Positions 42,142 through 58,942 of a DNA stretch of 64,000 nucleotides are shown here, one piece after another. Made by a program: the position numbers and the translations under genes. Positions within the stretch are counted from its first letter, which is position 1. The number at the start of each line of letters is the position of its first letter. The notes under the pieces were generated by a model, which was not told where the DNA came from, searched no databases, and worked only from the letters and a program-made list of their open reading frames with translations. Location of the stretch: NCBI RefSeq assembly GCF_040126305.1, contig NZ_CP149511.1, forward strand, positions 1,426,001 to 1,490,000, in the 5' to 3' direction. The DNA comes from Pararhizobium sp. A13 (lineage in GTDB: Bacteria; Pseudomonadota; Alphaproteobacteria; Rhizobiales; Rhizobiaceae).

Positions 42142-42432
42142 ATGAGCGCCTACTACATCTTTCAAGAGAATTTGCACGACCCGGCAAAATTCGAAGCCTA
42201 TCGAAAGGTGGTCATGTCGACGCTGGCGCCGTTCGAGGGAAGGATCATCGCCCGAGGCGGCGAACTCACCGTGGTCGAAGGCGAGTGGCCATTCGATCGG
42301 ACAGTGATCCTGGAATTCCCCTCCCGGACTGCCGCTGAGGCCTGGTACAACTCTCCCGCATATCAGGTGATCCTACCACTCCGTCTGCAAAGTATGATGT
42401 GTAATGCGATCTTGATTGACGGAGTGGGATAA
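42142..42432 (+). CDS. DUF1330-domain protein
   Basis: 96 residues of the DUF1330 ferredoxin-like (dimeric alpha/beta barrel) family: 'YYIFQENLHDPAKFEAYRKVVMSTLAPFEGRIIARGGELTVVEGEWPFDRTVILEFPSRTAAEAWYNSPAYQVILPLR'. Function unknown. Isolated gene with an AT-rich upstream region and a weak ribosome-binding site. Confidence 0.85.
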   Translation: MSAYYIFQENLHDPAKFEAYRKVVMSTLAPFEGRIIARGGELTVVEGEWPFDRTVILEFPSRTAAEAWYNSPAYQVILPLRLQSMMCNAILIDGVG

Positions 42433-44888: not shown

Positions 44889-47800
44889 TTAGACTGCTAG
44901 ATAAGCCGAAATGACTGCCGCAATCTGATCCGAATTCAGAGCCGCCATCTGGGAGTCTATCAAAGCGTCCAGTTGTTTGCTGGACAGGCTCGCGATGTCT
45001 CCCGTTGACAGCCCCGCTACACCAGTTGAGCTAAGAGACGCAACATCGTCCGTTGAGAAGGTTGCCAGATCGTCCGTGGTCAGTGCCGCTATTTGCGCTG
45101 AAGTCAGGGCACTGACTTGGGCTGATGTCAGAGCCTCAGCCTGCTCCGTCGTCAAGGCGGCAACGACCCTGGTGCTCAATCCCGAGACCGCACTCGAGCT
45201 CAAGGCGACGATATGATCGGTGGAAAACTGGGCGATGTCGTCTGTGCCGAGCGCTGCCGCCTGCATTGCGTTCAGAGCGCTGACCTGCGACGTGGACAAC
45301 GCCGCAATTTGGCCAGTGCTCATCGCCGCCACCTGGTTGTATCCCAGCGAACCAATCTGACTTTTGCTCAAACCGGCAATCTCGTCAGGGGAAAGGGCCG
45401 CTATAACATCCGTGGATAGTCCCTTAATGGCATCCAAGCCGATCAACGCGAGTTCGTCGGTTGAGAACGTTTCCAGATCCCCCGTGGTCAGGCCCGCGAG
45501 CCCATCCGCACTCAAAGCGGCAATCTGGCCGGTGGAAAGCGCTTCGATCTGCTCGGTACTCAAGGCGCTAACCTGATCGCTGCTTAGGCCCGCAATGCCC
45601 TTCGTGCTCAAGGCGGCAATCTCGGCAGTGGAGAACGCAGCGACAAAGTCCGTGGACAATCCGGAAATGCCATCCGAGCTGATTGCCGCAAGTTCCTCGG
45701 TCGAGAATGTTTCCAGATCTTCCGTGGTTAGGCCAGCGAATGCATCCGCACTCAAAGCGGTAATCTGGCCGGTGGACAGCGCTTCGATCTGCTCGGGACT
45801 CAAGGCACTGACCTGATCGCTGCTCAGGCCCGCAATGCCGGCCGGGCTCACGGCGGCGATCTGGTCGATCGAGAGAGCCGCTACCTCGTCAGTACCCAGG
45901 GCTGTAACCTGTTTGGAGCTGAGAGCGCTGACCTGCTTGGTAGACAAGGCTTCAATCTGGTCGGTGCTCAACGCATGGATCTGGCCAGTGGAAAGGCCTG
46001 CAATGCCTGCCGTGCTCAAGGCGGCAATCTGGTCCGTCGAAAAGGCAGCTATCGTGTCTGTGGACAACCCCGAGACGGCACTCGAGCTGATCGCCGCGAT
46101 ATGGGCGGTCGAGAAGGCTTGCAGATCGTCGGTACCGAGCACAGCAATCTGCTTCCAACTCAGCGCAGCAACCTGCTCGGTCGACAAGGCCTCAATCTGG
46201 TCGGTGCTCAACGTATTGATCTGGCCGGTGGAAAGGCCCGCGATGCCAGCCGTGCTCAACGCGGCAATCTGGTCCGCCGAAAAGGCGGCTATCGTGTCCG
46301 TGGACAATCCCGAGACGGCACTGGAGCTGATCGCCGCGATATGGGCGGTCGAGAAGGTTTCCAGATCGTCCGTACTGAGCGCCGCAATCTGCGTCGAGCT
46401 CAGCGCAGCAACCTGATCGGTGGACAAGGCCTCAACCTGGTCGTTGCTCAACGCATTGATCTGGCCGGTGGAAAGGCCCGCGATGCCAGCCGTGCTCAAG
46501 GCGGCAATCTGGTCCATCGAGAGAGTCGGTATGTTGTCAGTGCCCAGGGTTGCAATCTGTTTGGAGCTGAGAGCACTGAACTGCCAGGTCGACAAGGCCT
46601 CAATCTGGTCGGTGCTCAACGTATTGATCTGGTCGGTGGAAAGGCCCGCGATGCCAGCCGTGCTCAAGGCGGCAATCTGATCCGCCGAAAACGCCGCTAT
46701 CGCGCCCGTGGACAATCCCGATACGGCACTCGAACCGATCGCAGCGATATCGGCGGTTGAGAAAGTCTCCAGATCGTCCGTGCCCAGGGCTGCAATCTGC
46801 GTCGAACTCAGCATTGCAATCTGGGCAGCGGTCAAGGCCTCAACCTGGTCAGTGCTCAAAGCAACGATATTTGTGGTGCTCAGGCCCTTGATGCCAGCCG
46901 TGCCCAAGGCAGCAATCTGGTCGGTCGAGAGGGCCGCCATGTCTTCGGTATCCAAGGCTGCAACTTGTTTGGAGCTGAGAGCGCTGACCTGGGCAGCGGT
47001 CAAGGCCTCAATCTGGTCAGTGCTCAACGTATCGATCTGGTCGCTGGAAAGGTCCGCAATGCCGGCTGTGCTCAACGCGGCAATCTGGTCAGCGGAAAGG
47101 GCGGCGATGAGGTCTGTCGACAATCCCGATATAGCGCTCGCGCTGATCGCCGCGATGTCGTTGGTAGAGAGGGCCTCGAAGTCGTCCGTTCCCAGGACCG
47201 CGACCTGTGTCGAGCTGAGAGCGCCGACCTGGGCAGTTGTCAAGGCCTCAAGCTGGTCGCTGTTCAAAGTAACGATCTGTGTAGTGCTCAGTCCCGCAAT
47301 GCCAACCGTGCTCAGGGCCGCGATCTGGTCGATCGAGAGAACCGCTATGCCGTCAGTACCCAGGGCTGCAATCTGTTTGGAGGTGAGAGCGCTGACCTGC
47401 CTGGTAGACAAGGCCTCAATCTGGTCGGTGCTCAACGCGTTGATCTGGCCAGTGGAAAGGCCTGCAATGCCTGCCGTGCTCAAGGCAGGGATCTGGTCCG
47501 TCGAAAAGGCGGCTAGGGTGTCTGTGGACAATCCCGAGACGGCACTCGAGCTGATCGCCGCGATATCGGCGGTTGAGAAAGTTGCTATGTCATCCGTGTT
47601 CAAGGCAGCGACTTGCTTTGAACTGAGGGCGCCGATCTGAGCAGTGGTCAAGGCCTCAACCTGCACAGAGCTCAACGTGACGATATCTGTGGTGCTCAGC
47701 CCCGCAATGCCAGCCGTGCTCAAGGCGGCAATCCGATCGGTCGAGAGTACCGCTACATCGTTCGTGCTCAAGGCAGCGACTTGTTTGGAGCTGAGAGCGC

Positions 47801-50800
47801 CGATCTGGTCAGCGGTCAAGGCCGCAACCTGGTCGGTGCTCAACGCATCGATCTGCTTGGTGCTTAGTCCCGCAATGCCAGCCGTGCTCAGGGCGGCAAT
47901 CTGGTCGGTCGAGAGAGCTGCTATTACATCTGTGGACAGTCCATATATGACATCCGCGCTGATCGCCGCAATGTCCTTGGTCGAAAAGGCCTCTATATCG
48001 TCTGTATCAAGCACTTTAATTTGTTGGGAGCTGAGAACGCTGATCTGCTTGGTTGATAGGGCCTCAATCTGCTCGGTGCTTAGGACGTCGATCTGCTTCG
48101 TGCTCAGTCCGGCAATGCCAGCCGCGCTCAAGGCGGCAAGCTGGTCGGTCGAGAGAGCTGCTACAACAGCTGTGGACAGGCCCGACATGGCGCTCGAGCT
48201 GATCGCCGCCATGTCCTTGGTCGAGAAGGTTGCTATGTCATCCACTTCCAGGGCAGCGATCTGTGTCGAGCCGAGAGCGCCGACCTGGACGGTTGTCAGG
48301 GCCTCAACCTGGTCGGTGCTTAGAGCAACGATCTGTTTGGTGTTCAGTCCCGCAATGCCAGCCGCGCCCAAGGCGGCAATCTGATTGGTCGAGAAGGCCG
48401 CTAAATCGCTCGTGCCCAAAGCTGCGACCTGCGCCGAACTCAACACTGCAACCTGCTTGGTGCTCAAAACGGCGATCTGGCTGGTGCTGAGGGCGTCGAT
48501 CTGGTCGGTGCTTAGTCCGGCAATGCCAGCCGTGCTCAGGGCGGCAATCTGGTCGGTCGAGAGGGCTGCTACAACAGCTGTGGACAGGCCCGACATGGCA
48601 CTCAAGCTGATCGCCGCGATGTCCTTGGTCGAGAAAATTGCTATGTCGTCCGCTCCCAGGGCAGCGACCTGTGTCGAGCCGAGAGCGCCGACCTGGGCAG
48701 TGGTCAAGGCCTCAATCTGGGCGGTGCTTAGAGCAACAATCTGTTTGGTGCTCAGTCCCGCAATGCCAGCCGCGCTCAGGGCGGCGATCTGCTCGGTCGA
48801 GAAGGCCCCTAAATCGTTTGTCTCCAAGGCTGCGACTTGCGCCGAACTTAGCACTGCAACCTGCTTGGTGCTCAAAACGGCGATCTGGCTAGTGCTCAGG
48901 GCGTCGATCTGGTCGGTGCTCAGTCCGGCAATGCCAGCCGTGCTCAAGACGGCGATCGTGTCGGAGGACAATGCAGCAACATTGTCTGTGCTCAAGGCAG
49001 CAACTTGCGTCGAACTCAGTACTGCAATCTGTTTGGTGCTCACAACGACGATCTGCTCAGTGCTCAGGGCGTCGATCTGGTCGGTGCTCAGACCCGCAAT
49101 GCCAGTCGTGCTCAGGGCGGCAATCTGATCCGTCGAAAGCGCGGCTATCGTGTCTATCGACAATCCCGATATGGCACGCAAGCTGATCGCCGCGATATCA
49201 TCGGTCGAGAAAGTTGCTATATCGTCCGCATCCAGGGCCGCAAGCTGTGTAGAGCTGAGAACACCAATCTGTGCAGAGGACAAGGTTTTAACCTGGTCGG
49301 TGGACAAGGCTTCAATCTGATCGGTGCTCAGGCTCTTAGCGGCCTTCGTGCTCAGGGCGGCAACCTGGTCGGTGGAAAGGGCCGCGATGACGTCTATCGA
49401 CAATCCCGATATGGCACTGGAGCTGATCGCCGCGATATCATCGGTCGAGAAAATTGCTATATCGTCCGCATCCAGGGCCGCAAGCTGTGTAGAACCGAGA
49501 ACAGCAACCTGTGCAGAGGACAAGGCTTCGACCTGGTCGGTGGATAACGATTCAATTTGATCGGTGCTCAGGCTCGTAACGGCCTTCGCGCTCAGGGCGG
49601 CAACCTGATCGGTGGACAAGACGGCGACATTGTCCGGGCTCAAGGCAGTGATTTGCGTCGAGCCCAACATCTTGATCTGTGCAACGGAAAATGCCGCAGT
49701 CTGGTCGGTGGACAAGGCGCTGATCTGCGTGGTCGTCAGGCTCGCGACCGCGCTGATGCTAAATGCAGCAATCTGGTCAGTGGAAAGGGACGTGATAACA
49801 TCCGTGGTCAAGCCTGCTATGGCTTTATTACTGATCGCTGCAATATCGGCGGTCGAAAATGTCGCTATGGCGTCCGCCCCCAGGGCCACAAGCTGCGTCG
49901 AGCTCAGCGACTTCACCTGTAAGGTGGATAGCGCCGCAGCCTGGCCGGTCGACAAGGCAGCGATCTGTGCGGTCGTCAAACTCACGACCGCACTCGTGCT
50001 CAAGGCAGTAATGTGATCGGAGGAAAGCGCGGCGATAACGCCCGTGGTCAAGCCCGCTATGGCTTTACTACTGATCGCTGAGATATCGGCGGTCGAAAAT
50101 GTCGCTATGTCGTCCGTCCCCAGGGCCGCAAGCTGTCGCGCGCTCAGCGATTTCACCTGTGAGACGGATAGTGCCTCGGCCTGGTCGGTCGACAAGGCAC
50201 CGATCTGACTAGAAGTCAGGCCTGCGACGCCATTCGTACTCAGGGCGGCAACCTGATCGGTGGACAAGGCCGCAATCTTGTCCGTGCTCAATGTAGCGAC
50301 TTGCGTCGAACTCAACGTCTTGACCTTTGCCACCGAAAATGCCGCGATGTGGTCGGTGGACAACGCGCCGATCTGTGCGGTCGTCAGGCTCGCGACCGCA
50401 CTCGTGCTCAAGGCAGTGATCTGTTCAGTCGAAAGCGCCGCCATAACGCCCGTGGTCAAGCCCGCTATGGCTTTATTACTGATCGCTGCGATATCGGCGG
50501 TCGAAAATGTCGCTATGGCGTCTGTCCCCAGGGCCGCAAGCTGTCGCGCGCTCAGCGACTTCACCTGTGAGACGGATAGTGCCTCGGCCTGGTCGGTCGA
50601 CAAGGCACCGATCTGACTAGAAGTCAGGCCTGCGACGCCCTTCGTGCTCAGGGCGGCAATCTGATCGGTGGACAATACCGCAATCTTGTCCGTGCTCAAG
50701 GCAGCGACTTGCGTCGAACCCAACATCCTGACCTGTGTAACGGAAAATGCCGCGATCTGGTCGGTGGACAAGGCGCCGATCTGTACGGTCGTCAGGCTCG

Positions 50801-51540
50801 CGACAGCACTTGTGCCAAAGGCGGTGATCTGTTCAGTGGAAAGCGCCGCCATAACGCCCGTGGTCAGGCCCGATACGGCTTTATTGCTGATCGCTGCAAT
50901 ATCGGCGGTCGAAAATGTCGCTATGTCGTCCGTCCCCAGGGCCGCAAGCTGTCGCGAGCCCAGCGACTTCACCTGTAAGATGGATAGTGCCTCAGCCTGG
51001 TCGGTGGACAAGGCGCCGATCTGTGCGGTCGTCAGGTTCGCGACCGCACTCGTGCTAAAGGCGGCAATCTGGTCAGTGGAAAGGGACGCGATAACATCGG
51101 TGGTCAGGCCCGATACGCCTCTCCCGCTGATAGCCGCGATATCAGCGGTTGAGAAGGTTGCCAGGTCATCCGTGCTTAGGGCCGCAAGTTGCGACGCGCT
51201 AAGGGCGCTTACTTGCGAGGAGATCAAGGCTTCCGCCTGATCTGTCGTCAAAGCTCCAATCTGCGTCGTGGTGAGTGCTGCAACCTGACTCGAGCCCAAA
51301 CTTTCGACGTCATATTTATCCAGAATAGCCAATTGATCCAGAGTCAAACCAACGATGGCGCTTTGCGAAATGGCGCTTAGCTGCCGGGTGCTGAGGGCTT
51401 CAACATCCTCCGTGTCCAAAGCGGCGACTTGAGCTGAAGAAAGCGCTTTGATCTGATTTGTAGAAAGGGACGCCACCTCGTCCGTAGTCCAGGTAGCGAC
51501 TGCCGCAGTTGAAAGAGACCTGATCTGATTGGCGCTTAGG
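44889..51540 (-). repeat. 24-bp coding tandem repeat with 240/408-bp higher-order periods
   Basis: The reading frame of the giant protein repeats every 24 bp (one octad). Blocks of 10 octads (240 bp) and 17 octads (408 bp) recur, for example in the 45.9-46.8 kb and 49.6-50.9 kb parts. Copies are diverged. Confidence 0.85.
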
Positions 51541-51560
51541 GAAGAGATGATCGAGGTCAT
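44889..51560 (-). CDS. Giant octapeptide-repeat protein (2223 residues)
   Basis: Apart from the first about 7 residues the whole protein is built from roughly 275 tandem octads of the form [STG]-[ST]-x-[QDAG]-[IV]-x-[AGS]-[LFI], such as 'STDQIAAL', 'STAGIAGL', 'SSTQVAAL', 'STADIAAI'. Blocks of 10 octads (from one 'GTDDLETF' to the next) and 17 octads form higher-order repeats. There is no signal peptide, membrane segment or RTX nonapeptide; I saw no cysteine and very few aromatic residues. The C-terminus 'NSDQIAAVISAYLAV' is hydrophobic and could be a type I secretion signal (speculative). A regular solenoid is the likely fold. Octads vary at the DNA level, so this is not a recent expansion artefact. 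The ribosome-binding site is weak. Function unknown; an adhesin, surface layer or structural filament is conceivable. Confidence 0.88.
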   Translation of the reverse strand: MTSIISSLSANQIRSLSTAAVATWTTDEVASLSTNQIKALSSAQVAALDTEDVEALSTRQLSAISQSAIVGLTLDQLAILDKYDVESLGSSQVAALTTTQIGALTTDQAEALISSQVSALSASQLAALSTDDLATFSTADIAAISGRGVSGLTTDVIASLSTDQIAAFSTSAVANLTTAQIGALSTDQAEALSILQVKSLGSRQLAALGTDDIATFSTADIAAISNKAVSGLTTGVMAALSTEQITAFGTSAVASLTTVQIGALSTDQIAAFSVTQVRMLGSTQVAALSTDKIAVLSTDQIAALSTKGVAGLTSSQIGALSTDQAEALSVSQVKSLSARQLAALGTDAIATFSTADIAAISNKAIAGLTTGVMAALSTEQITALSTSAVASLTTAQIGALSTDHIAAFSVAKVKTLSSTQVATLSTDKIAALSTDQVAALSTNGVAGLTSSQIGALSTDQAEALSVSQVKSLSARQLAALGTDDIATFSTADISAISSKAIAGLTTGVIAALSSDHITALSTSAVVSLTTAQIAALSTGQAAALSTLQVKSLSSTQLVALGADAIATFSTADIAAISNKAIAGLTTDVITSLSTDQIAAFSISAVASLTTTQISALSTDQTAAFSVAQIKMLGSTQITALSPDNVAVLSTDQVAALSAKAVTSLSTDQIESLSTDQVEALSSAQVAVLGSTQLAALDADDIAIFSTDDIAAISSSAISGLSIDVIAALSTDQVAALSTKAAKSLSTDQIEALSTDQVKTLSSAQIGVLSSTQLAALDADDIATFSTDDIAAISLRAISGLSIDTIAALSTDQIAALSTTGIAGLSTDQIDALSTEQIVVVSTKQIAVLSSTQVAALSTDNVAALSSDTIAVLSTAGIAGLSTDQIDALSTSQIAVLSTKQVAVLSSAQVAALETNDLGAFSTEQIAALSAAGIAGLSTKQIVALSTAQIEALTTAQVGALGSTQVAALGADDIAIFSTKDIAAISLSAMSGLSTAVVAALSTDQIAALSTAGIAGLSTDQIDALSTSQIAVLSTKQVAVLSSAQVAALGTSDLAAFSTNQIAALGAAGIAGLNTKQIVALSTDQVEALTTVQVGALGSTQIAALEVDDIATFSTKDMAAISSSAMSGLSTAVVAALSTDQLAALSAAGIAGLSTKQIDVLSTEQIEALSTKQISVLSSQQIKVLDTDDIEAFSTKDIAAISADVIYGLSTDVIAALSTDQIAALSTAGIAGLSTKQIDALSTDQVAALTADQIGALSSKQVAALSTNDVAVLSTDRIAALSTAGIAGLSTTDIVTLSSVQVEALTTAQIGALSSKQVAALNTDDIATFSTADIAAISSSAVSGLSTDTLAAFSTDQIPALSTAGIAGLSTGQINALSTDQIEALSTRQVSALTSKQIAALGTDGIAVLSIDQIAALSTVGIAGLSTTQIVTLNSDQLEALTTAQVGALSSTQVAVLGTDDFEALSTNDIAAISASAISGLSTDLIAALSADQIAALSTAGIADLSSDQIDTLSTDQIEALTAAQVSALSSKQVAALDTEDMAALSTDQIAALGTAGIKGLSTTNIVALSTDQVEALTAAQIAMLSSTQIAALGTDDLETFSTADIAAIGSSAVSGLSTGAIAAFSADQIAALSTAGIAGLSTDQINTLSTDQIEALSTWQFSALSSKQIATLGTDNIPTLSMDQIAALSTAGIAGLSTGQINALSNDQVEALSTDQVAALSSTQIAALSTDDLETFSTAHIAAISSSAVSGLSTDTIAAFSADQIAALSTAGIAGLSTGQINTLSTDQIEALSTEQVAALSWKQIAVLGTDDLQAFSTAHIAAISSSAVSGLSTDTIAAFSTDQIAALSTAGIAGLSTGQIHALSTDQIEALSTKQVSALSSKQVTALGTDEVAALSIDQIAAVSPAGIAGLSSDQVSALSPEQIEALSTGQITALSADAFAGLTTEDLETFSTEELAAISSDGISGLSTDFVAAFSTAEIAALSTKGIAGLSSDQVSALSTEQIEALSTGQIAALSADGLAGLTTGDLETFSTDELALIGLDAIKGLSTDVIAALSPDEIAGLSKSQIGSLGYNQVAAMSTGQIAALSTSQVSALNAMQAAALGTDDIAQFSTDHIVALSSSAVSGLSTRVVAALTTEQAEALTSAQVSALTSAQIAALTTDDLATFSTDDVASLSSTGVAGLSTGDIASLSSKQLDALIDSQMAALNSDQIAAVISAYLAV

Positions 51561-52533: not shown

Positions 52534-53538
52534 TCACGGCTTCAGCAGGACGCGATCCGGTGTGCTGCGTAGCACCGAGGCATAGGCCTTGGCCGCATCG
52601 GCAAGGCTGTAGCATGTCGCCGGATTGATCGGGAAAGGCTTCAGAAGACCTTCGTCGAATTTCGGCTTCAGCCGATCGAAGATGCGCGCGCCGTCGACGG
52701 AAGACAGCGCCAGCGTGTCGATGCCGATATATTTGTGGCGGCCGCGGAAAAAGTTGAAGATATCAAAAGGCACGGCCCGGTCGAAGGTCGAGATGAAGAT
52801 CTGCCGCGCCTGTTTCGCCATCGCCTTGTTGGCGATCTCGAAATAGGGACTGCCAACGGTGTTGAAGACGATGTCGGCGCCGTGGCCGCCGGTCTGGTCG
52901 CGAACGATCTGCGCCACGTCATCCGTGCTGCTGTTGAGCATCGTCACCGGCGCGTTGGTGTGCCCTTGCAGCGGCTGGTCGTTGTATTCGACGGCGAAGA
53001 CCTTGGCACCGGCCATGGTCGCGAGCTGGATCGCGGCCTGGCCGACTTTGCCATTACCGCCGCAGACGAGAACGACATCGGTCGGCTGGACGCCGCCTGC
53101 TTCCCGCAGACCTTCGTAAGCGGTGATGAAGGGCACGCCGATCGATCCCGCCTCCTCCATGGTGAAGTTGGCCGGCTTCTCACGCACCGCCTTCTGGTCG
53201 AGCACCATCCACTTGGCATGGCTGCCGTCCTGGCTGATGCCGAGCTCGCCGCCGCCGCCCCAGACTTCCATCCCGATCATCTGCTTCGGCCCTTCACGGA
53301 CGATCCCGCCGAAATCGCGACCGGGAGTGCGCGGCCAGACGGCATGCGGCATATGGCCGAGGGAGGCCTTGACGTCGCTGGGATTGACGCCCGCGGCGAC
53401 AATTTCGACCAGCACCTGCCCGGGGCCGGGACGCGGGACGCTGACATCGACGAGATCGATCAGCAGATTGTCGAGATCGGTGGACGCCTGCGAAACACGC
53501 AGTGCCTTGCCGGCCTTTGTCTCTGTCTGGATGTTCAT
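52534..53538 (-). CDS. Zinc-independent alcohol dehydrogenase / quinone oxidoreductase (MDR family)
   Basis: 334 residues of the medium-chain reductase superfamily. GroES-like N-terminus 'VSVPRPGPGQVLVEIVAAGVNPSDVKASLG', NADPH-binding 'VVLVCGGNGKVGQAAIQLATMAGAKVFAVEYND' (GGNGKVG), and no structural-zinc Cys cluster, so closer to quinone oxidoreductase/crotonyl-CoA reductase-type members. Follows the BKACE gene by 33 bp in the operon. It may reduce an enone or quinone intermediate of the aromatic pathway. Confidence 0.9.
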   Translation of the reverse strand: MNIQTETKAGKALRVSQASTDLDNLLIDLVDVSVPRPGPGQVLVEIVAAGVNPSDVKASLGHMPHAVWPRTPGRDFGGIVREGPKQMIGMEVWGGGGELGISQDGSHAKWMVLDQKAVREKPANFTMEEAGSIGVPFITAYEGLREAGGVQPTDVVLVCGGNGKVGQAAIQLATMAGAKVFAVEYNDQPLQGHTNAPVTMLNSSTDDVAQIVRDQTGGHGADIVFNTVGSPYFEIANKAMAKQARQIFISTFDRAVPFDIFNFFRGRHKYIGIDTLALSSVDGARIFDRLKPKFDEGLLKPFPINPATCYSLADAAKAYASVLRSTPDRVLLKP

Positions 53539-53571
53539 TGGCTTTGTCCTTTCATAGGTGCTTCGGGCCGC

Positions 53572-54450
53572 TCAGGCCTTCAATTGCAGGATGTCTCTGG
53601 CTTCCGACGGGCCCGCGATCTGCCCGCCCAGTTTTTCGACGATGTCGCGGGCGCGCTCGACGAGTTCGCCATTGCCTTTCGCAAGCACGCCCTTGGCGAT
53701 GTAGGAATTGTCCTCCAGCCCGACCCGCACATGACCGCCGAGCAGATAGGACTGCGCTGCCATCGGAAACGACATGCGGCCGACGCCGAAACCGGTCCAG
53801 ACCGCATCGCGCGGCAGCATCCGCGCGGCGAGCGCCATCGCGTCCGGTGTGGCCGGAAGGCCGTATTTGACGCCGGTGACGATGGTGAACATGGCGGGCG
53901 ACTTAAGCACCCCGGCCCTAAGCAGATCGTTGGCGAGCTGAATATCACCAGTGTCGAAGACCTCCAGTTCCGGCTTGACGCCGGCGCCGTTGATGAGTTC
54001 GGCCATGATCTTCACATTGCCGGGCGTGTTGATCACCACCTCGGCGCCGAACGTCATGGTGTTGAGGTCGAGCGTCGCGATATCAGGCTTCAGCGCGACG
54101 ATGTGCTCCACCCGCCGCTCCGGCCGCATCAATGTCGTGCGTGGCCCCGCGACAGCCGGGTTTTCGTCACTCGGATGATAACGCCCGCCCGGCCCCGTCG
54201 TGACGTTGAGGATCACCGCGCTGTCCTTCGCCCTGATGCGCTCGATGACCTCGCGGTAATATTTGAGTTCCATCGACGGCCTTGCCGTTTCGGGGTCGCG
54301 CACATGGATGTGCACGACCGCAGCGCCAGCGTCGGCCGCCTCGAGGCAGGAGTTGGCGATCTCCTCGGGCGTTACAGGTAGGCCGGGATGGTTTTCCCGA
54401 GTGGTGAGGTTGCCGGTGACGGCACAGGTGATGATGACTTTCGGTTGCAT
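53572..54450 (-). CDS. BKACE-family (DUF849) 3-keto acid cleavage enzyme
   Basis: 292-residue TIM barrel of the beta-keto acid cleavage family (3-keto-5-aminohexanoate cleavage enzyme homologues). Family motifs: 'KVIITCAVTGNLTTRENHPGLPVTPEEIANSCLEAADAGAAVVHIHVRDPETARP' with the zinc His-x-His ('HIHVRDP'), 'VILNVTTGPGG' and 'VRVGLEDNSYIAKG'. These enzymes condense a beta-keto acid with acetyl-CoA and split it to a CoA ester and acetoacetate. The ATG at 54450 overlaps the SDR stop (TGATG). Suggests that the aromatic product is processed to a beta-keto acid. Confidence 0.93.
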   Translation of the reverse strand: MQPKVIITCAVTGNLTTRENHPGLPVTPEEIANSCLEAADAGAAVVHIHVRDPETARPSMELKYYREVIERIRAKDSAVILNVTTGPGGRYHPSDENPAVAGPRTTLMRPERRVEHIVALKPDIATLDLNTMTFGAEVVINTPGNVKIMAELINGAGVKPELEVFDTGDIQLANDLLRAGVLKSPAMFTIVTGVKYGLPATPDAMALAARMLPRDAVWTGFGVGRMSFPMAAQSYLLGGHVRVGLEDNSYIAKGVLAKGNGELVERARDIVEKLGGQIAGPSEARDILQLKA

Positions 54451-55205
54451 CAGAGGTGCCTCCCCCCATCGACCACGATCCGCGTGCCGGTCGAGAATTT
54501 GAGATGCGTCGCGCAGGCGAGGATCGCTTCGGCGACATCGGTTGTTGTCGTCAGCCTCTTCAGTGGCGTCGCGGCGGCGGCCTTGTCCTTGAAATCCTGT
54601 CCCCGACCAGGGACGAAATCGGTATCCACCATGCCCGGCGAGATCGCCATGACACGGATTTGCGGCGCCAGAGCCCGGGCCAGCGAATTGCTCATGATGT
54701 CTAGCCCGGCCTTGGCGCCGCAATAGGCGATGTTGGAGCCGATGCCGGTGAAGGCTGCGATTGAGGAGACGTTGACGATCAGCCCGTCGCCGCTTGCTTT
54801 CAGCGCCGGCGCGAAGGCCCTGACCGTCGAAAACACGCCGCGCCAGTTGTTGACGAAGATCTGGTCGATCAGATCGTCGGTCAGCGCATCGAGATCGGCA
54901 TGCGGGACCGGCTGGGTGACGCCCGCCGTATTCACCAGAATATCCGCTTTGCCGAGTCTGGAAAGCACGGCATCGCGAAACGCCTCGATGCTTGGCGTGT
55001 CTTCGATCGACACCGGCAGGGCCGCGTGGCCGTTACCCGGCAGGGCCGCGACGAGCGCTTGGGCCTTCTCCTTGGCCGACCGATAGCCAACCGCGACACG
55101 GGCGCCAGCCTCCGCCAGCAGCCGGCAGGTTTCCTGGCCGATCCCCCCGGAGCCGCCGACCACCACTGCGACCTTGCCTGTCAAAGCATACGACATGTTC
55201 ATCAT
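54450..55205 (-). CDS. Short-chain dehydrogenase/reductase (SDR)
   Basis: 251 residues. Cofactor motif 'VAVVVGGSGGIGQETCRLL' (G-x3-GxG), 'VNTAGVTQP' (the NNAG variant), and the Ser148-Tyr161-Lys165 triad in 'NVSSIAAFTGIGSNIAYCGAKAGL'. The start lies among GTG 55217 (overlapping the dioxygenase stop) and several ATGs at 55205-55196; GGAG favours 55205/55202. In an operon with a LigF-like GST it could oxidise a side-chain alcohol, the job of LigD-type SDRs (inference). Confidence 0.92.
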   Translation of the reverse strand: MMNMSYALTGKVAVVVGGSGGIGQETCRLLAEAGARVAVGYRSAKEKAQALVAALPGNGHAALPVSIEDTPSIEAFRDAVLSRLGKADILVNTAGVTQPVPHADLDALTDDLIDQIFVNNWRGVFSTVRAFAPALKASGDGLIVNVSSIAAFTGIGSNIAYCGAKAGLDIMSNSLARALAPQIRVMAISPGMVDTDFVPGRGQDFKDKAAAATPLKRLTTTTDVAEAILACATHLKFSTGTRIVVDGGRHL

Positions 55206-55213
55206 CTGCTCCG

Positions 55214-56140
55214 TCACGACTTCTTGCCCGAGATCGGCGGCACCGGATAGCTCGGCTCGCCCTCGACCAGCTTGAACTGATATTCGCAGGTGTAGAAAGG
55301 CAGTGGCGCATCCGGATAGTCGCCATGCGGCTCGGTATGCTCGACGAAATCGCCGATGATCTGCGTCTTGGCGCCGAAGACGACGTCGGTCGCCAGCGCA
55401 TCATGCGTGTCCGAGAAGATCTGGGTGACCAGCGTCTTGTGACCGGGCGCCGAGACGATGAAATGGATGTGCGCCGGCCGCATCGGATGGCGTTGCTGGG
55501 CCTGTAGGAGATCGCCGACGGGTCCATCGACCGGCACGGGATAGCCGGCCGGCTTTACCGATGTGAAGTGGAAGCTGCCATTCGCATCGGTGCGGAAAAC
55601 ACCGCGCAGGTTGAAATCGTCCTGGCCCGTATCCTGGTTTTCATAGAGACCGACAGGGGACGCCTGCCAGACATCGAGCTTGGCGTCTTCGATAGGCTTG
55701 CCATCGACACCGGTCACCCTGCCCTTGAAATAGAGCGCCAGACCGGGCGTTTTCGATCGGGCGATGCAGTCGCCGCGGGCGCAGTCCGGGGCCTGTCCGC
55801 GATAGAACGGCCCGAGCAGTGCCGACATGGTTTCGCCCTGCATGCCGTCATTGTTGATGAGGTCGATCAGCGTCGAGGCGCCGACGACATCGGCGGCGAG
55901 CACCACCTCGTTGTTGCTCTCGTTGGTGTGATGGCCAAGGGCTGCGATCCAGCGCAGGCCCTGCTCGAATTCTTCCTCGGTCGGCTGCGTCTCAATGATG
56001 AACGCGTGCAGGTGCCGAACCATGGAATCCATGATCTGCTTCAGGCGCGGATCGGAGGTGCGCGACATCGCCGCCAGCACCGTCGGCGTCACGTCGGCAA
56101 CGGTGCTGATGAGCTTCGGTTCGATTGTTACGTGCTGCAT
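55214..56140 (-). CDS. Intradiol ring-cleavage dioxygenase (hydroxyquinol 1,2-dioxygenase-like)
   Basis: 308 residues with the N-terminal catechol-dioxygenase helical domain (about 10-110) and the Fe(III) beta-sandwich. Iron ligands are all present: Tyr166 ('PVGLYENQD'), Tyr200 ('KPAGYPVPVDG'), His224 and His226 ('RPAHIHFIVS'). It opens the ring of a catechol or hydroxyquinol to a muconate or maleylacetate. Sequence context ('LGPFYRGQAP', 'DLLQAQQRHPMRPAHIHF') resembles hydroxyquinol 1,2-dioxygenases. The ring-cleavage enzyme of the operon; no maleylacetate reductase is seen nearby. Confidence 0.92.
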   Translation of the reverse strand: MQHVTIEPKLISTVADVTPTVLAAMSRTSDPRLKQIMDSMVRHLHAFIIETQPTEEEFEQGLRWIAALGHHTNESNNEVVLAADVVGASTLIDLINNDGMQGETMSALLGPFYRGQAPDCARGDCIARSKTPGLALYFKGRVTGVDGKPIEDAKLDVWQASPVGLYENQDTGQDDFNLRGVFRTDANGSFHFTSVKPAGYPVPVDGPVGDLLQAQQRHPMRPAHIHFIVSAPGHKTLVTQIFSDTHDALATDVVFGAKTQIIGDFVEHTEPHGDYPDAPLPFYTCEYQFKLVEGEPSYPVPPISGKKS

Positions 56141-56167
56141 GATGCTTCTCCTGTCGTTGCCCGCGCT

Positions 56168-56941
56168 TCAGGCGGCTACGGTCTTCAAAGCCTGCAGATG
56201 CGGATATTTTTCCGTCAGCAGGGCACCGTGGTAATAGGTCTTGGCAAAAGCGTCGGTCGTGCGAATGCGGTCGAGCCACTCGCTGATTTCCGGCGCATCC
56301 GCCCAGAGGTGGCCGAGATTGATGTCGTCCATGCGCACGATGACGGGCATGATGGCGATGTCGGCGAGCGTCAGGTCCTTGCCCATCAGCCAGGGGCCGC
56401 CGCTCTCCCGGAGCCAGCTTGTCATGCGCTCTATCCCGCGCCGCAGGCGGCCGAGCGCTTCGTCCATTTCCGACTGCGGAAAGCCGGTGCGGCCCATCTT
56501 CAGCAGGAACTCGCGGCGAAGCGGCTTGCTCTCACAGACGGCAAGGAATTCCTCTTCCGTCATCGCCTGATAGTGCGGCAGGAAGGCCAGGTTATAGGAC
56601 GGCACGCGGACGGCGGGCGTCGGCACTTCATCGACATAGCGCATCATCGCCCGCATACGGGCAACCTTCAGCGGATCCTCCGGTCGCAGTGGCGAGATGG
56701 TGCCCAGGATATCTTCGAGATATTCCATGATAACGGCTGAATCGATGACGGCGTTGCCGTTGTGCACCAGCGCCGGCACCAGCCCGTTCGGATTGATCTT
56801 CAGATATTCCGGCTTCAGCTGGTCGCCCTTGAAGAGGTCGAGCTTGTGCTCCTTGAACTCGCGGCCCTTGGCATGCAGCACATAGCGCACGCGCTGGCTG
56901 CAGGTGGATTGCGGCGCATTGTAAACAACATATTCCGGCAT
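56168..56941 (-). CDS. Glutathione S-transferase, LigF/beta-etherase-like
   Basis: 257 residues, thioredoxin-fold N-terminus ('YVVYNAPQSTCSQRVRYVLHAKGREF', with Ser/Cys near the glutathione site) and helical C-terminus. Length and motifs 'KINPNGLVPALVHNGNAVIDSAVIMEYLED', 'LRPEDPLKVARMRAMMRYVDE', 'GFPQSEMDEALGRLRRGIERM' resemble beta-etherase (LigF-type) GSTs of lignin-degrading sphingomonads rather than standard detoxifying GSTs. Start 56941 has GAGGAGGAAAG. First catabolic gene after the ABC transporter genes, so it probably handles the imported aromatic. Confidence 0.88.
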   Translation of the reverse strand: MPEYVVYNAPQSTCSQRVRYVLHAKGREFKEHKLDLFKGDQLKPEYLKINPNGLVPALVHNGNAVIDSAVIMEYLEDILGTISPLRPEDPLKVARMRAMMRYVDEVPTPAVRVPSYNLAFLPHYQAMTEEEFLAVCESKPLRREFLLKMGRTGFPQSEMDEALGRLRRGIERMTSWLRESGGPWLMGKDLTLADIAIMPVIVRMDDINLGHLWADAPEISEWLDRIRTTDAFAKTYYHGALLTEKYPHLQALKTVAA

Positions 56942-57017
56942 GACTTTCCTCCTCCTGCCGTGCGGCAAGGTTCAAACCAAAGCATTGTGACAGTGCCCCG
57001 CGGGGCGGTCCGCGCGA

Positions 57018-58064
57018 TCAATCCCAGTTGAGAACGCGCGGCAGTTTGCCTTTCCTCGCCAGCGTTCCGACGAGGCCGAGCGGGAAGAACATCAGGCCCG
57101 CCGCCATCACCATGCCGGTGCCGAGGATGTTGATTTCCGAGGCGCCCATGGTGGCGACGAACAGTTCGTTGAGCGCCACGATCAGGATCGCGCCGATCAC
57201 CGGCCCGGCCACCGTTCCCTTACCGCCAAGGATCGACATCAGCACGAGGTTGGCCGACACCAGGATCACCAGGAAGATATTGGGCCGCAGATAGGTGAGG
57301 TATTCGCCCCAGACAGCACCCGCCATGCCGACGAAAAAGGCAGAAAGCGCAAAGGCCGTGACCTTATAGAAGCGCGTGTCAATGCCGGCACTTTCCGCCT
57401 TGATCTCATCCTTGGAGATTGCCCGGAGGCCAAGACCGAACTTCGAATGCTTGATCCTGTAGCTCGCCCAGACGGTGAAGGCGGCAATTGCCAGCATGGC
57501 GTAATAGTAGGGAACTTTGGCCCATTGTACGGGAAGGTCGTTGACAGGCAGCGTCACGCCGTTGGCACCGCCGATGAGTTCCCAATTATCAAACAGGATA
57601 CGGGCGATCATCAGGAGCGCGATCGACGAGATGATGAAGCTCGGGCCGCGGACCTTGAGTGTCACCATACCGACCAGGTAGCCGACCACCGCGGCGAGCA
57701 GGCCGGCGAGCGGCGCGGTGATGATTGTCGAGATGCCGTAGCGCGCCAGGATCATGCCGGAAAAATATCCGCCGATCGCGAAGAACACGCTGTGGCCGAG
57801 CGATATATAGCCGGCAAAGCCCCCGAGGATGTTCCAGCCCGATGCCATCGCCACATAGGACGCCGTGAACAGCACCATATGCAGCAGGTAGTTGTAGTTG
57901 CCCGTGAACTGCAGAAGCGGCAGGGCGGCAAGTGCAGCCAGGATGACCAGCGGAAACCACGTGGCCCTCATCTGGTCGGCCTTGCGGGCGAGCTTTTCGT
58001 TGTGGGCACGGCGCGCTTCGACAACGGCGCTGGCGCTGGATTGCTGAAGAGTAACGGCCATCAT
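57018..58064 (-). CDS. Branched-chain-type ABC transporter permease LivM
   Basis: 348 residues, about 10 membrane segments. LivM signatures: 'YNYLLHMVLFTASYVAMASGWNILGGFAGYISLGHSVFFAIGGYFSGM' and the late 'SNLVLMSILGGKGTVAGPVIGA' equivalent ('SANLVLMSILGGKGTVAGPVIGAILI'). The start at 58064 overlaps the LivH stop (ATGA). With LivH it forms the channel of a transporter whose genetic company suggests an aromatic acid rather than an amino acid. Confidence 0.95.
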   Translation of the reverse strand: MMAVTLQQSSASAVVEARRAHNEKLARKADQMRATWFPLVILAALAALPLLQFTGNYNYLLHMVLFTASYVAMASGWNILGGFAGYISLGHSVFFAIGGYFSGMILARYGISTIITAPLAGLLAAVVGYLVGMVTLKVRGPSFIISSIALLMIARILFDNWELIGGANGVTLPVNDLPVQWAKVPYYYAMLAIAAFTVWASYRIKHSKFGLGLRAISKDEIKAESAGIDTRFYKVTAFALSAFFVGMAGAVWGEYLTYLRPNIFLVILVSANLVLMSILGGKGTVAGPVIGAILIVALNELFVATMGASEINILGTGMVMAAGLMFFPLGLVGTLARKGKLPRVLNWD

Positions 58065-58942
58065 GCCATCTCCGGTTTTTCGCCGAACAGGCCCTGGGGC
58101 CGCACCAGCAGGATGAGGAAAAGAGCGAGGAAGAAGGTGAGCGTCGACCATGTCGCACCGACCCAGGTGCCGACAAAGGCGGCGATGACCGAGAGCATAA
58201 GCGCTGCGACCACCGTGCCGAGAATGCTGCCCATGCCGCCGAGCACGACGACCGACATCAGCATGGCAATCCATTCCCAGTGTTTTGCCGGGAAGAAGCT
58301 GAAGACGAAGCTGACGAGCGAACCGGCGGCACCCGCAAGACCGATGCCGATGGCAAAGGCGAGAATGCAGATGAAGTTGACGTTGACGCCCAGAAGTTCG
58401 GCCGCCTCGCGGTTCTGCGTCGTCGCCCGGATGGCATAGCCGAGACGGGAATATTTGAGAAACAGGGTGAGCGCGGTAATGATCGTCAGCGAGACGATGC
58501 CGGCATAGAGCTGCCCTTTCGGGATGAAAAGGTCACCGACGAAGAAGGCATCGGTCGCATAGTCCGGCGAGACGACGCGCTGCGTGTTGGTGAAGAGGCC
58601 GCCGAGCAGGCCTTCGACCATCATTGCTAAGGCAAAGGTCAGAAGCACCGTCATTTCGGAATATTTGGCGCTCTTGGTCTCCCTCTCGAACATCAGCCGG
58701 TAGAGCAACACGCCGACGGCAGCCATGATGACGGAGGCCACCGGCAGCATGACGATCGGATCGACACCTGTCACCTTGAAGGCCCAGTAGGTGACATAGG
58801 CGCCACCGATGATCAGCGAGGGGTGCGCGAGATTGACGATGCGCATCACGCCGAAGACCAGCGACAGGCCGGACCCCATCAGCGCGATGACGCCGCCGAG
58901 AGCGAGGCCGAGAATGAGAATTTGCAGGATATCTGCCATCAT
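58061..58942 (-). CDS. Branched-chain-type ABC transporter permease LivH
   Basis: 293 residues with about eight membrane segments. Contains 'LILGLALGGVIALMGSGLSLVFGVMRIVNLAHPSLIIGGAYV' (LivH N-terminal pattern) and 'RATTQNREAAELLGVNVNFICILAFAIGIGLAGAAG'. The ATG at 58942 or 58939 follows GGAGG. Eight bp after the LivF gene, overlapping LivM. Confidence 0.95.
   Translation of the reverse strand: MMADILQILILGLALGGVIALMGSGLSLVFGVMRIVNLAHPSLIIGGAYVTYWAFKVTGVDPIVMLPVASVIMAAVGVLLYRLMFERETKSAKYSEMTVLLTFALAMMVEGLLGGLFTNTQRVVSPDYATDAFFVGDLFIPKGQLYAGIVSLTIITALTLFLKYSRLGYAIRATTQNREAAELLGVNVNFICILAFAIGIGLAGAAGSLVSFVFSFFPAKHWEWIAMLMSVVVLGGMGSILGTVVAALMLSVIAAFVGTWVGATWSTLTFFLALFLILLVRPQGLFGEKPEMA

Follow-up and report, generated by a model that had tools for sequence, protein, structure and literature searches.

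Pararhizobium sp. A13, a member of the Rhizobiaceae, carries an unusually repetitive gene within the 64,000-nucleotide stretch of DNA analysed here (NZ_CP149511.1, positions 1,426,001 to 1,490,000; hereafter the window). The gene has an ATG start and a single open frame of 2223 amino acids (aa), made almost wholly of eight-residue repeats, or octads. It lies on the minus strand, which an original prediction made from the sequence alone had left unstated; across the same span, the first frame of the plus strand holds many stops. Its features are as follows:

44889..51560, minus strand: ALTTAQ (PF20080) octapeptide-repeat protein, 2223 aa, predicted alpha-solenoid (open reading frame translation, PF20080 match, octad register, AlphaFold2 models of both ends)
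51318..51560, minus strand: N-terminal 81 residues, probable cap or recognition segment (alignment of relatives; similar N-termini at loci L058, L059 and L062)
44982..51317, minus strand: octad array, repeating at a higher level every 10 and 17 octads; position 1 is the predicted helix N-cap, position 2 the proposed O-glycosylation site
44892..44981, minus strand: last 30 residues, predicted as two longer helices, with a conserved tail; candidate export signal

A regular repeat with a predicted helical fold

About 278 octads of the type S-T-x-Q-[IV]-A-A-L follow one another in a single fixed register, without a slip from end to end. Over the whole protein, position 8 is Leu, Phe, Ile, Val, Trp or Met in 277 of 277 octads and position 5 is Ile, Val, Leu, Ala, Met or Phe in 277 of 278, while Ser, Thr or Gly occupies position 1 in 261 of 278 and Thr or Ser position 2 in 223 of 278. 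Self-identity at a lag of eight residues is 0.40 versus 0.035-0.096 at those lags within 1-19 that are not multiples of eight, and rises to 0.56 at a lag of 10 octads (80 residues) and to 0.61 at one of 17 octads (136 residues), against 0.385-0.404 at the tested lags of 88-128 residues. The original prediction of an octad repeat over the whole length, with these preferences at positions 1, 2, 5 and 8 and higher-order periods of 10 and 17 octads, is thus confirmed. It needs one correction, in that the repeat belongs to a named family: the protein matches Pfam family PF20080 (ALTTAQ_rpt) with 1479.5 bits against a cut-off of 26.4, over 85 stretches. A literature search for 'ALTTAQ' found no paper naming the PF20080 repeat. 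Neither RTX nonapeptide repeats (PF00353) nor PF05860, which we take to be the TPS domain of two-partner secretion exoproteins, is among the protein's Pfam matches up to E 1.

AlphaFold2, run with 13 aligned sequences, modelled the first 328 and the last 329 residues with a predicted local distance difference test score (pLDDT) of 95.4 and 93.7, respectively. Nearly every octad is modelled as one short helix of 4-6 residues at about positions 2-6, which makes position 1 the N-cap and lets the helix start at position 2; over the last 30 residues, two longer helices are predicted. The very regular solenoid that had been foreseen therefore agrees with structure prediction. Foldseek and VIA-align gave no convincing structural neighbour among the matches listed. 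A leucine-rich repeat (LRR), a strand-forming LxxLxL solenoid, was also considered, there being weak sequence matches to LRR proteins in the PDB (best E 2.9e-6, profile); it was rejected because neither model contains a strand.

A GT41 glycosyltransferase accompanies the octad genes

The 6.36 Mb genome consists of three contigs and holds three octad loci, namely the window copy on contig C2 and, on contig C1, two frames 1279 and 304 aa long. Next to the 1279-aa paralogue stands a gene for a family 41 glycosyltransferase with tetratricopeptide repeats (TPR-GT41), followed by genes for a Methyltransf_FA-domain protein and a UDP-galactopyranose mutase (GLF). The window copy is a paralogue, and since the GT41 of this genome (C1:3903359) lies on another contig, the partnership could not be foreseen from the window. 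The partner enzyme exceeds the PF13844 cut-off with 244.2 bits and has TPR matches. A His and a Lys that align with the catalytic region of human OGT, and to which we presume catalytic roles, are present in 28 of the 28 GT41 proteins aligned (part of those found); judging by these residues, the enzyme is probably active. Assignment to the HMW1C/NGT subfamily was rejected, the score of 27.9 bits comparing with an NGT equivalog cut-off of 1000.

Among 61 genomes of the family, GT41 (E 1e-100) occurs in seven, all of which carry PF20080, with the two genes at most 1.6 kb apart, in various orientations, and GLF adjacent in every case. PF20080 was called in nine of the 61 (E 1e-8), including G035, whose protein is not an octad protein; in the octad genome G031, a genome-wide check found no GT41. 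Even with G035 counted, co-occurrence over the 61 genomes gives a Fisher p of 8e-8. GT41 likewise lies within 8 kb in 11 of 13 relatives from a genome contig collection; as for the other two, in the L038 genome it adjoins another ALTTAQ gene, and at L032 it is 17 kb off on the same contig.

Relatives exist in other rhizobia, as the original prediction had suggested. In a larger sample, 59 of 394 Rhizobiaceae genomes have a match (E 1e-18) to the N-terminal 100 residues. For each of the 59, the DNA surrounding the matches was examined in stretches of at most 20 kb (23 kb for the window); GT41 is found in the stretches of 34 genomes, from 13 of 22 genera, accompanied by GLF in 30 of the 34. On plasmids, surveyed with the N-terminal 328 residues as the octad query and a GT41 threshold of E 1e-60, 56 records match octads and 53 match GT41; 24 are shared (nine of them from Cereibacter sphaeroides), with the two matches 260-11,809 bases apart. 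All 10 records whose GT41 has at least 60% identity also have an octad match, and in the 29 GT41 records without octads identity is at most 41%. The frequent position of GLF next to GT41 suggests galactofuranose in the glycan. L058 and L113 each have a tandem pair of GT41 genes that differ in subtype, one with a GAHTT and the other with an NAGT motif; the two enzymes may differ in the sugar added or the acceptor used. Some Cereibacter plasmid records (e.g. NZ_CP030273, 45749-50434) label the homologue 'ICE nucleation protein' or 'heme utilization protein', names that are probably mistaken.

The residue at octad position 2 varies with the enzyme

Were the octads the substrate of GT41, one would expect their acceptor residue to be kept mainly alongside the enzyme. 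This expectation was examined position by position in 83 genes of at least 700 aa, compared as genus means between the 13 GT41 genera and the nine others, in which no GT41 lies near. For Ser/Thr at position 2, the means are 0.62-0.83 in the former and 0.23-0.57 in the latter (Mann-Whitney p 1.1e-4); at position 1, the helix cap, there is no difference (0.77 versus 0.75, p 0.39). Excluding the genus that prompted the idea, the position-2 difference has p 1e-5.

Counted per genome, mean position-2 Ser/Thr is 0.72 (0.60-0.89) in the 34 with GT41 near, 0.61 (0.37-0.79) in the nine with none near that belong to a GT41 genus, and 0.39 (0.21-0.57) in the 16 from other genera; genomes with GT41 near differ from all 25 with none near (0.21-0.79) at position 2 (p 5.5e-7) and not at position 1 (p 0.9). 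Where one genome holds both kinds of paralogue, the GT41-adjacent one is richer in position-2 Ser/Thr in eight of eight cases, position 1 giving four of eight. Within the window's own genus, two further genomes have none near in the stretches searched, namely G360, with values of 0.42 and 0.31, and G355. At L058, L059 and L062, position 3 is also 80-91% Ser/Thr, versus genus means of 13-36% in GT41-bearing Rhizobiaceae.

Export genes, conserved ends and selection

Genes of a type I secretion system (T1SS) adjoin the octad and GT41 genes in Cereibacter, Pseudomonas, Pseudoroseomonas and Niveispirillum. Two Pseudomonas plasmids have a PrtD-type ATP-binding cassette (ABC) gene, HlyD and TolC next to them. 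In the laboratory strain Cereibacter sphaeroides 2.4.1, the octad gene, GT41, an ABC gene and HlyD adjoin one another on plasmid pA. In Niveispirillum (L058; L059 is from the same genus), the ABC protein matches the HlyB model with 605.8 bits, under the cut-off of 725.55, and HlyD is over its cut-off. Elsewhere in the window genome, three PrtD-type exporters exceed the cut-off. The N-terminal 160 residues as query found 84 proteins, 14 of which list RTX (PF00353) and 23 PF05860. No cysteine occurs in 11 of 13 octad proteins counted.

Both ends of the protein are conserved. In the alignment of relatives, the first ~80 residues (MTSIIxSLSxxQIRSLSTAxVAAWTTEDVxSLST...) are better conserved than the octads after them, and L058, L059 and L062, from other families, have a related N-terminus. 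All 17 Rhizobiaceae proteins of the first sets compared carry the C-terminal tail [AS][VI]IxxYxx, even the five in which a Ser/Thr/Asp-rich linker replaces the last octads ahead of it; in these five (L034, L037, L038, L040 and L042), the octads end ~40-70 residues early and the linker bears the same tail. From its sequence pattern, the tail behaves as an export signal could.

The ratio of non-synonymous to synonymous substitution rates (dN/dS) is 0.08-0.12 in five close orthologue pairs, none of which includes the window copy, and 0.21 between the window copy and L035 (alignment of 2223 and 2435 residues). For internal copies of the window protein, the ratio is 0.33-0.37 (lags of 80, 136 and 216 residues). 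The two rates are thus unequal between octads as well as between orthologues; the ratios indicate strong purifying selection on the octad gene between orthologues, in agreement with the proposal that selection keeps the long frame open. L033 aligns without gaps with L043 and L039 (2303 aa each) at dS 0.44 and 1.07; the array is not freely growing or shrinking in that lineage. The repeat gene is broken into several frames in Pseudomonas asturiensis (L110, 11685-18976), Pseudoroseomonas (L113, 9082-14169) and Rhizobium alarense (L041); the last also contains unknown bases.

A putative glycosylated and secreted solenoid

With relatives that often stand by a sugar-transferring enzyme and, in some other bacteria, by an export pump, the window protein is probably a secreted rod with sugars along its length. 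Put more fully, we consider it reasonably probable that it is a secreted alpha-solenoid, O-glycosylated in the cytoplasm at position 2 of many octads and then exported, probably via type I secretion. In the AlphaFold2 models, positions 2-6 of each octad would make up a helix roughly five residues long, with the Ser/Thr of position 1 as its cap, and the hydrophobic positions 5 and 8 would fall in the solenoid core. Linkage and position-specific covariation suggest that the cytoplasmic TPR-GT41 O-glycosylates the position-2 Ser/Thr, which would give the window protein as many as 223 sugars; the UDP-galactopyranose mutase gene often found beside GT41 would bring galactofuranose into the Rhizobiaceae glycan. 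Export would proceed C-terminus first through a type I system, presumably for the window copy as well. The exporter is apparently dedicated in Cereibacter, Pseudomonas, Pseudoroseomonas and Niveispirillum; that of Rhizobiaceae is probably a general one of PrtD/PrsD type, encoded elsewhere in the genome. Outside the cell, we would hesitantly guess at a hydrophilic glycoprotein of the surface or the matrix, long and stiff in shape. Also tentative is the wider proposal of a new glycosylation and secretion class, in which TPR-GT41 would place an O-linked sugar, containing galactofuranose in many rhizobia, on Thr-2 of most octads of the giant solenoid before type I export and so produce a regular helical glycan array outside the cell; this class would extend over Alphaproteobacteria and Pseudomonas, on chromosomes and plasmids, with enzyme and acceptor lost together.

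Several observations weigh against such a glycosylated and exported protein. As to the enzyme, 25 of the 59 ALTTAQ genomes have no GT41 in the examined stretches (nine in GT41 genera, 16 in the nine other genera), 32 of the 56 octad plasmid records have no GT41 match (E 1e-60) on the same record, and GLF is in the fetched flank at just four of the 11 GT41 loci of the contig collection. As to the acceptor, GT41 absence was checked genome-wide for G031 only, so that 'no GT41' as a class means none near; G355 belongs to that class and yet has position-2 Ser/Thr of 0.79. Position 7 differs slightly too (p 0.045, with p 0.053 at position 6), and single genes overlap (0.52-0.95 at position 2 beside GT41 versus 0.21-0.67 in other genera). 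Related genomes are moreover not independent, four of the eight within-genome cases coming from one genus. As to export, T1SS neighbours, which the original prediction had suggested looking for, are adjacent in the four genera named above but rare in the family: a T1SS-like match lies in the stretches examined of only two of the 59 Rhizobiaceae genomes, and none is near the gene in this genome. The C-terminal 499 residues of the Pseudomonas protein matched no T1SS model. Ten further Rhizobiaceae ends (L044, L046, L048, L049, L050, L052, L053, L054, L055 and L108) are looser, four fitting the tail strictly and the other six keeping Tyr or Phe, and the RTX proteins seen in this genome mostly end in [DG]-[FY]-x-x, unlike the AYLAV of the window protein. 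Finally, some clusters lie among flagellar or chemotaxis genes, which a secreted glycoprotein leaves unexplained.

The covariation at position 2 might instead reflect base composition or shared ancestry, GC-rich genomes having lost Ser/Thr at an unconstrained position while GT41 is a neighbour for some other reason, e.g. surface polysaccharide synthesis. Close genomes are indeed not independent, locus GC is higher in the genera with no GT41 nearby (p 3e-4), which also counts against glycosylation as the cause, and position-6 Ser/Thr drops with GC (t -4.8). However, with GC as covariate the GT41 term keeps t 5.9 at position 2 (-0.4 at position 1), the genus means of genes with GC 0.65-0.70 do not overlap (0.56-0.87 with GT41 versus 0.22-0.53, p 7e-4), and Cereibacter retains position-2 Ser/Thr of 0.96 at a gene GC of 0.75. 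Together with the unanimous within-genome cases and the flat position 1, these results make the explanation unlikely. That the protein stays in the cytoplasm for good, as a scaffold or for storage, strikes us as quite unlikely as well: no Sec-type signal is apparent by eye, without a predictor run, and no T1SS match lies near the gene in this genome, but this is set against the adjacent T1SS genes of four genera, the PF20080 repeats in proteins with RTX or PF05860 domains and the scarcity of cysteine.

A link to the flagellum would make GT41 an FlmG-like flagellin glycosyltransferase and the octad protein a flagellar or chemotaxis product, perhaps exported by the flagellar apparatus via its conserved N-terminus. 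Caulobacter FlmG is described as a flagellin O-glycosyltransferase made of TPR plus a GT-B domain (PMC7591256), and ALTTAQ/GT41 loci stand by flagellar or chemotaxis genes at L049, L036, L044, L061, L108, L110 and L111. These neighbours comprise CheR/CheB/FliF (five genomes of one genus), methyl-accepting chemotaxis protein genes (L044, L108, L110), FlhB and FliF (L036) and FlhB/FlgB (L061, where the octad gene has no GT41 within the stretch); in Rhodovastum, the octad and GT41 genes are near the flagellar genes FliI to FlhB, with no T1SS gene within the stretch seen. Yet this GT41 subfamily tracks the octad gene (seven of seven genomes), flagellar or chemotaxis matches occur in the stretches of only six of the 34 GT41 genomes (five of one genus), T1SS genes are adjacent in four genera and the position-2 covariation points to the octads as substrate, which leaves a flagellar role improbable. 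The neighbourhood may reflect either a motility link or a favoured place of insertion. An ice-nucleation-like protein, as several Cereibacter records are named and as the octapeptide period might invite, is scarcely credible: ice nucleators are beta-solenoids, whereas the AlphaFold2 models are helical and free of strands, and no ice-nucleation family is among the Pfam matches up to E 1.

Relation to known systems

The closest parallels to the proposed glycosylated solenoid each share a part of it. Haemophilus HMW1C, a GT41, is described as a dedicated cytoplasmic enzyme that glycosylates the large exported HMW1 adhesin (PMC3983070), and a dedicated cytoplasmic GT41 with a large exported substrate is what we propose here. 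Unlike the octad protein, for which T1SS export and modification of Ser/Thr in octad register are suggested, HMW1 is reported to use two-partner secretion and to be N-glycosylated (PMC3983070); HMW1C is described with an AAD domain and not TPRs, whereas the partner here is a TPR-GT41. FlmG of Caulobacter crescentus resembles the partner as a cytoplasmic TPR plus GT-B O-glycosyltransferase of an exported substrate (PMC7591256), but the account of it concerns flagellin and pseudaminic acid, in contrast to an octad solenoid and, in many Rhizobiaceae, a UDP-galactopyranose mutase. Rhizobium PrsDE is reported to export many proteins of widely varied kind (PMC2275737); like the octad protein as proposed, its substrates and RTX proteins include large repeat proteins exported by T1SS, but the window protein differs from the RTX proteins in its C-terminal end and in having no RTX match.

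A solved chain, 9zem ('HeliScrew4'), is related by sequence (E 8.3e-19 with a single sequence, 9.6e-27 with a profile) and, judged from its name, is probably a designed protein. It shares an octad repeat of LTPEQIAAL type, but unlike the window protein it has 120 residues only and Pro at position 2 in many octads, which leaves no acceptor there. It was outside the 50 matches listed by Foldseek or VIA-align for the AlphaFold2 model; the library may not hold it.

The repeat was already known, but its association with GT41 and T1SS and an acceptor position that covaries with the enzyme appear to be new, as far as the literature was searched; these searches found no such octad/GT41/T1SS system described. 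If the proposal is true, PF20080, which has no described function in the literature searched, would become part of a defined system of three components whose substrate site can be tested, and one acceptor per eight residues would offer a natural ruler for bacterial GT41 specificity. It would also be relevant to rhizobial surface glycan display and to engineered glycan scaffolds, and enzyme-acceptor covariation over genera would provide a cheap in silico route to glycosylation sites.

Surroundings of the gene

The description of the gene as standing alone in a decayed region fits only one side of it. Among the open reading frames tested in the left flank, a DUF1330 gene within 38.7-44.9 kb gave the one Pfam match, and this gene is complete (42142-42432, plus strand) within an otherwise gene-poor stretch. 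The right flank consists of recognisable catabolic genes, with a minus-strand run at 52534-58274 that encodes a zinc alcohol dehydrogenase, BKACE, a short-chain dehydrogenase/reductase (SDR), an intradiol dioxygenase, a glutathione S-transferase (GST)-like protein and a permease of the branched-chain amino acid type.

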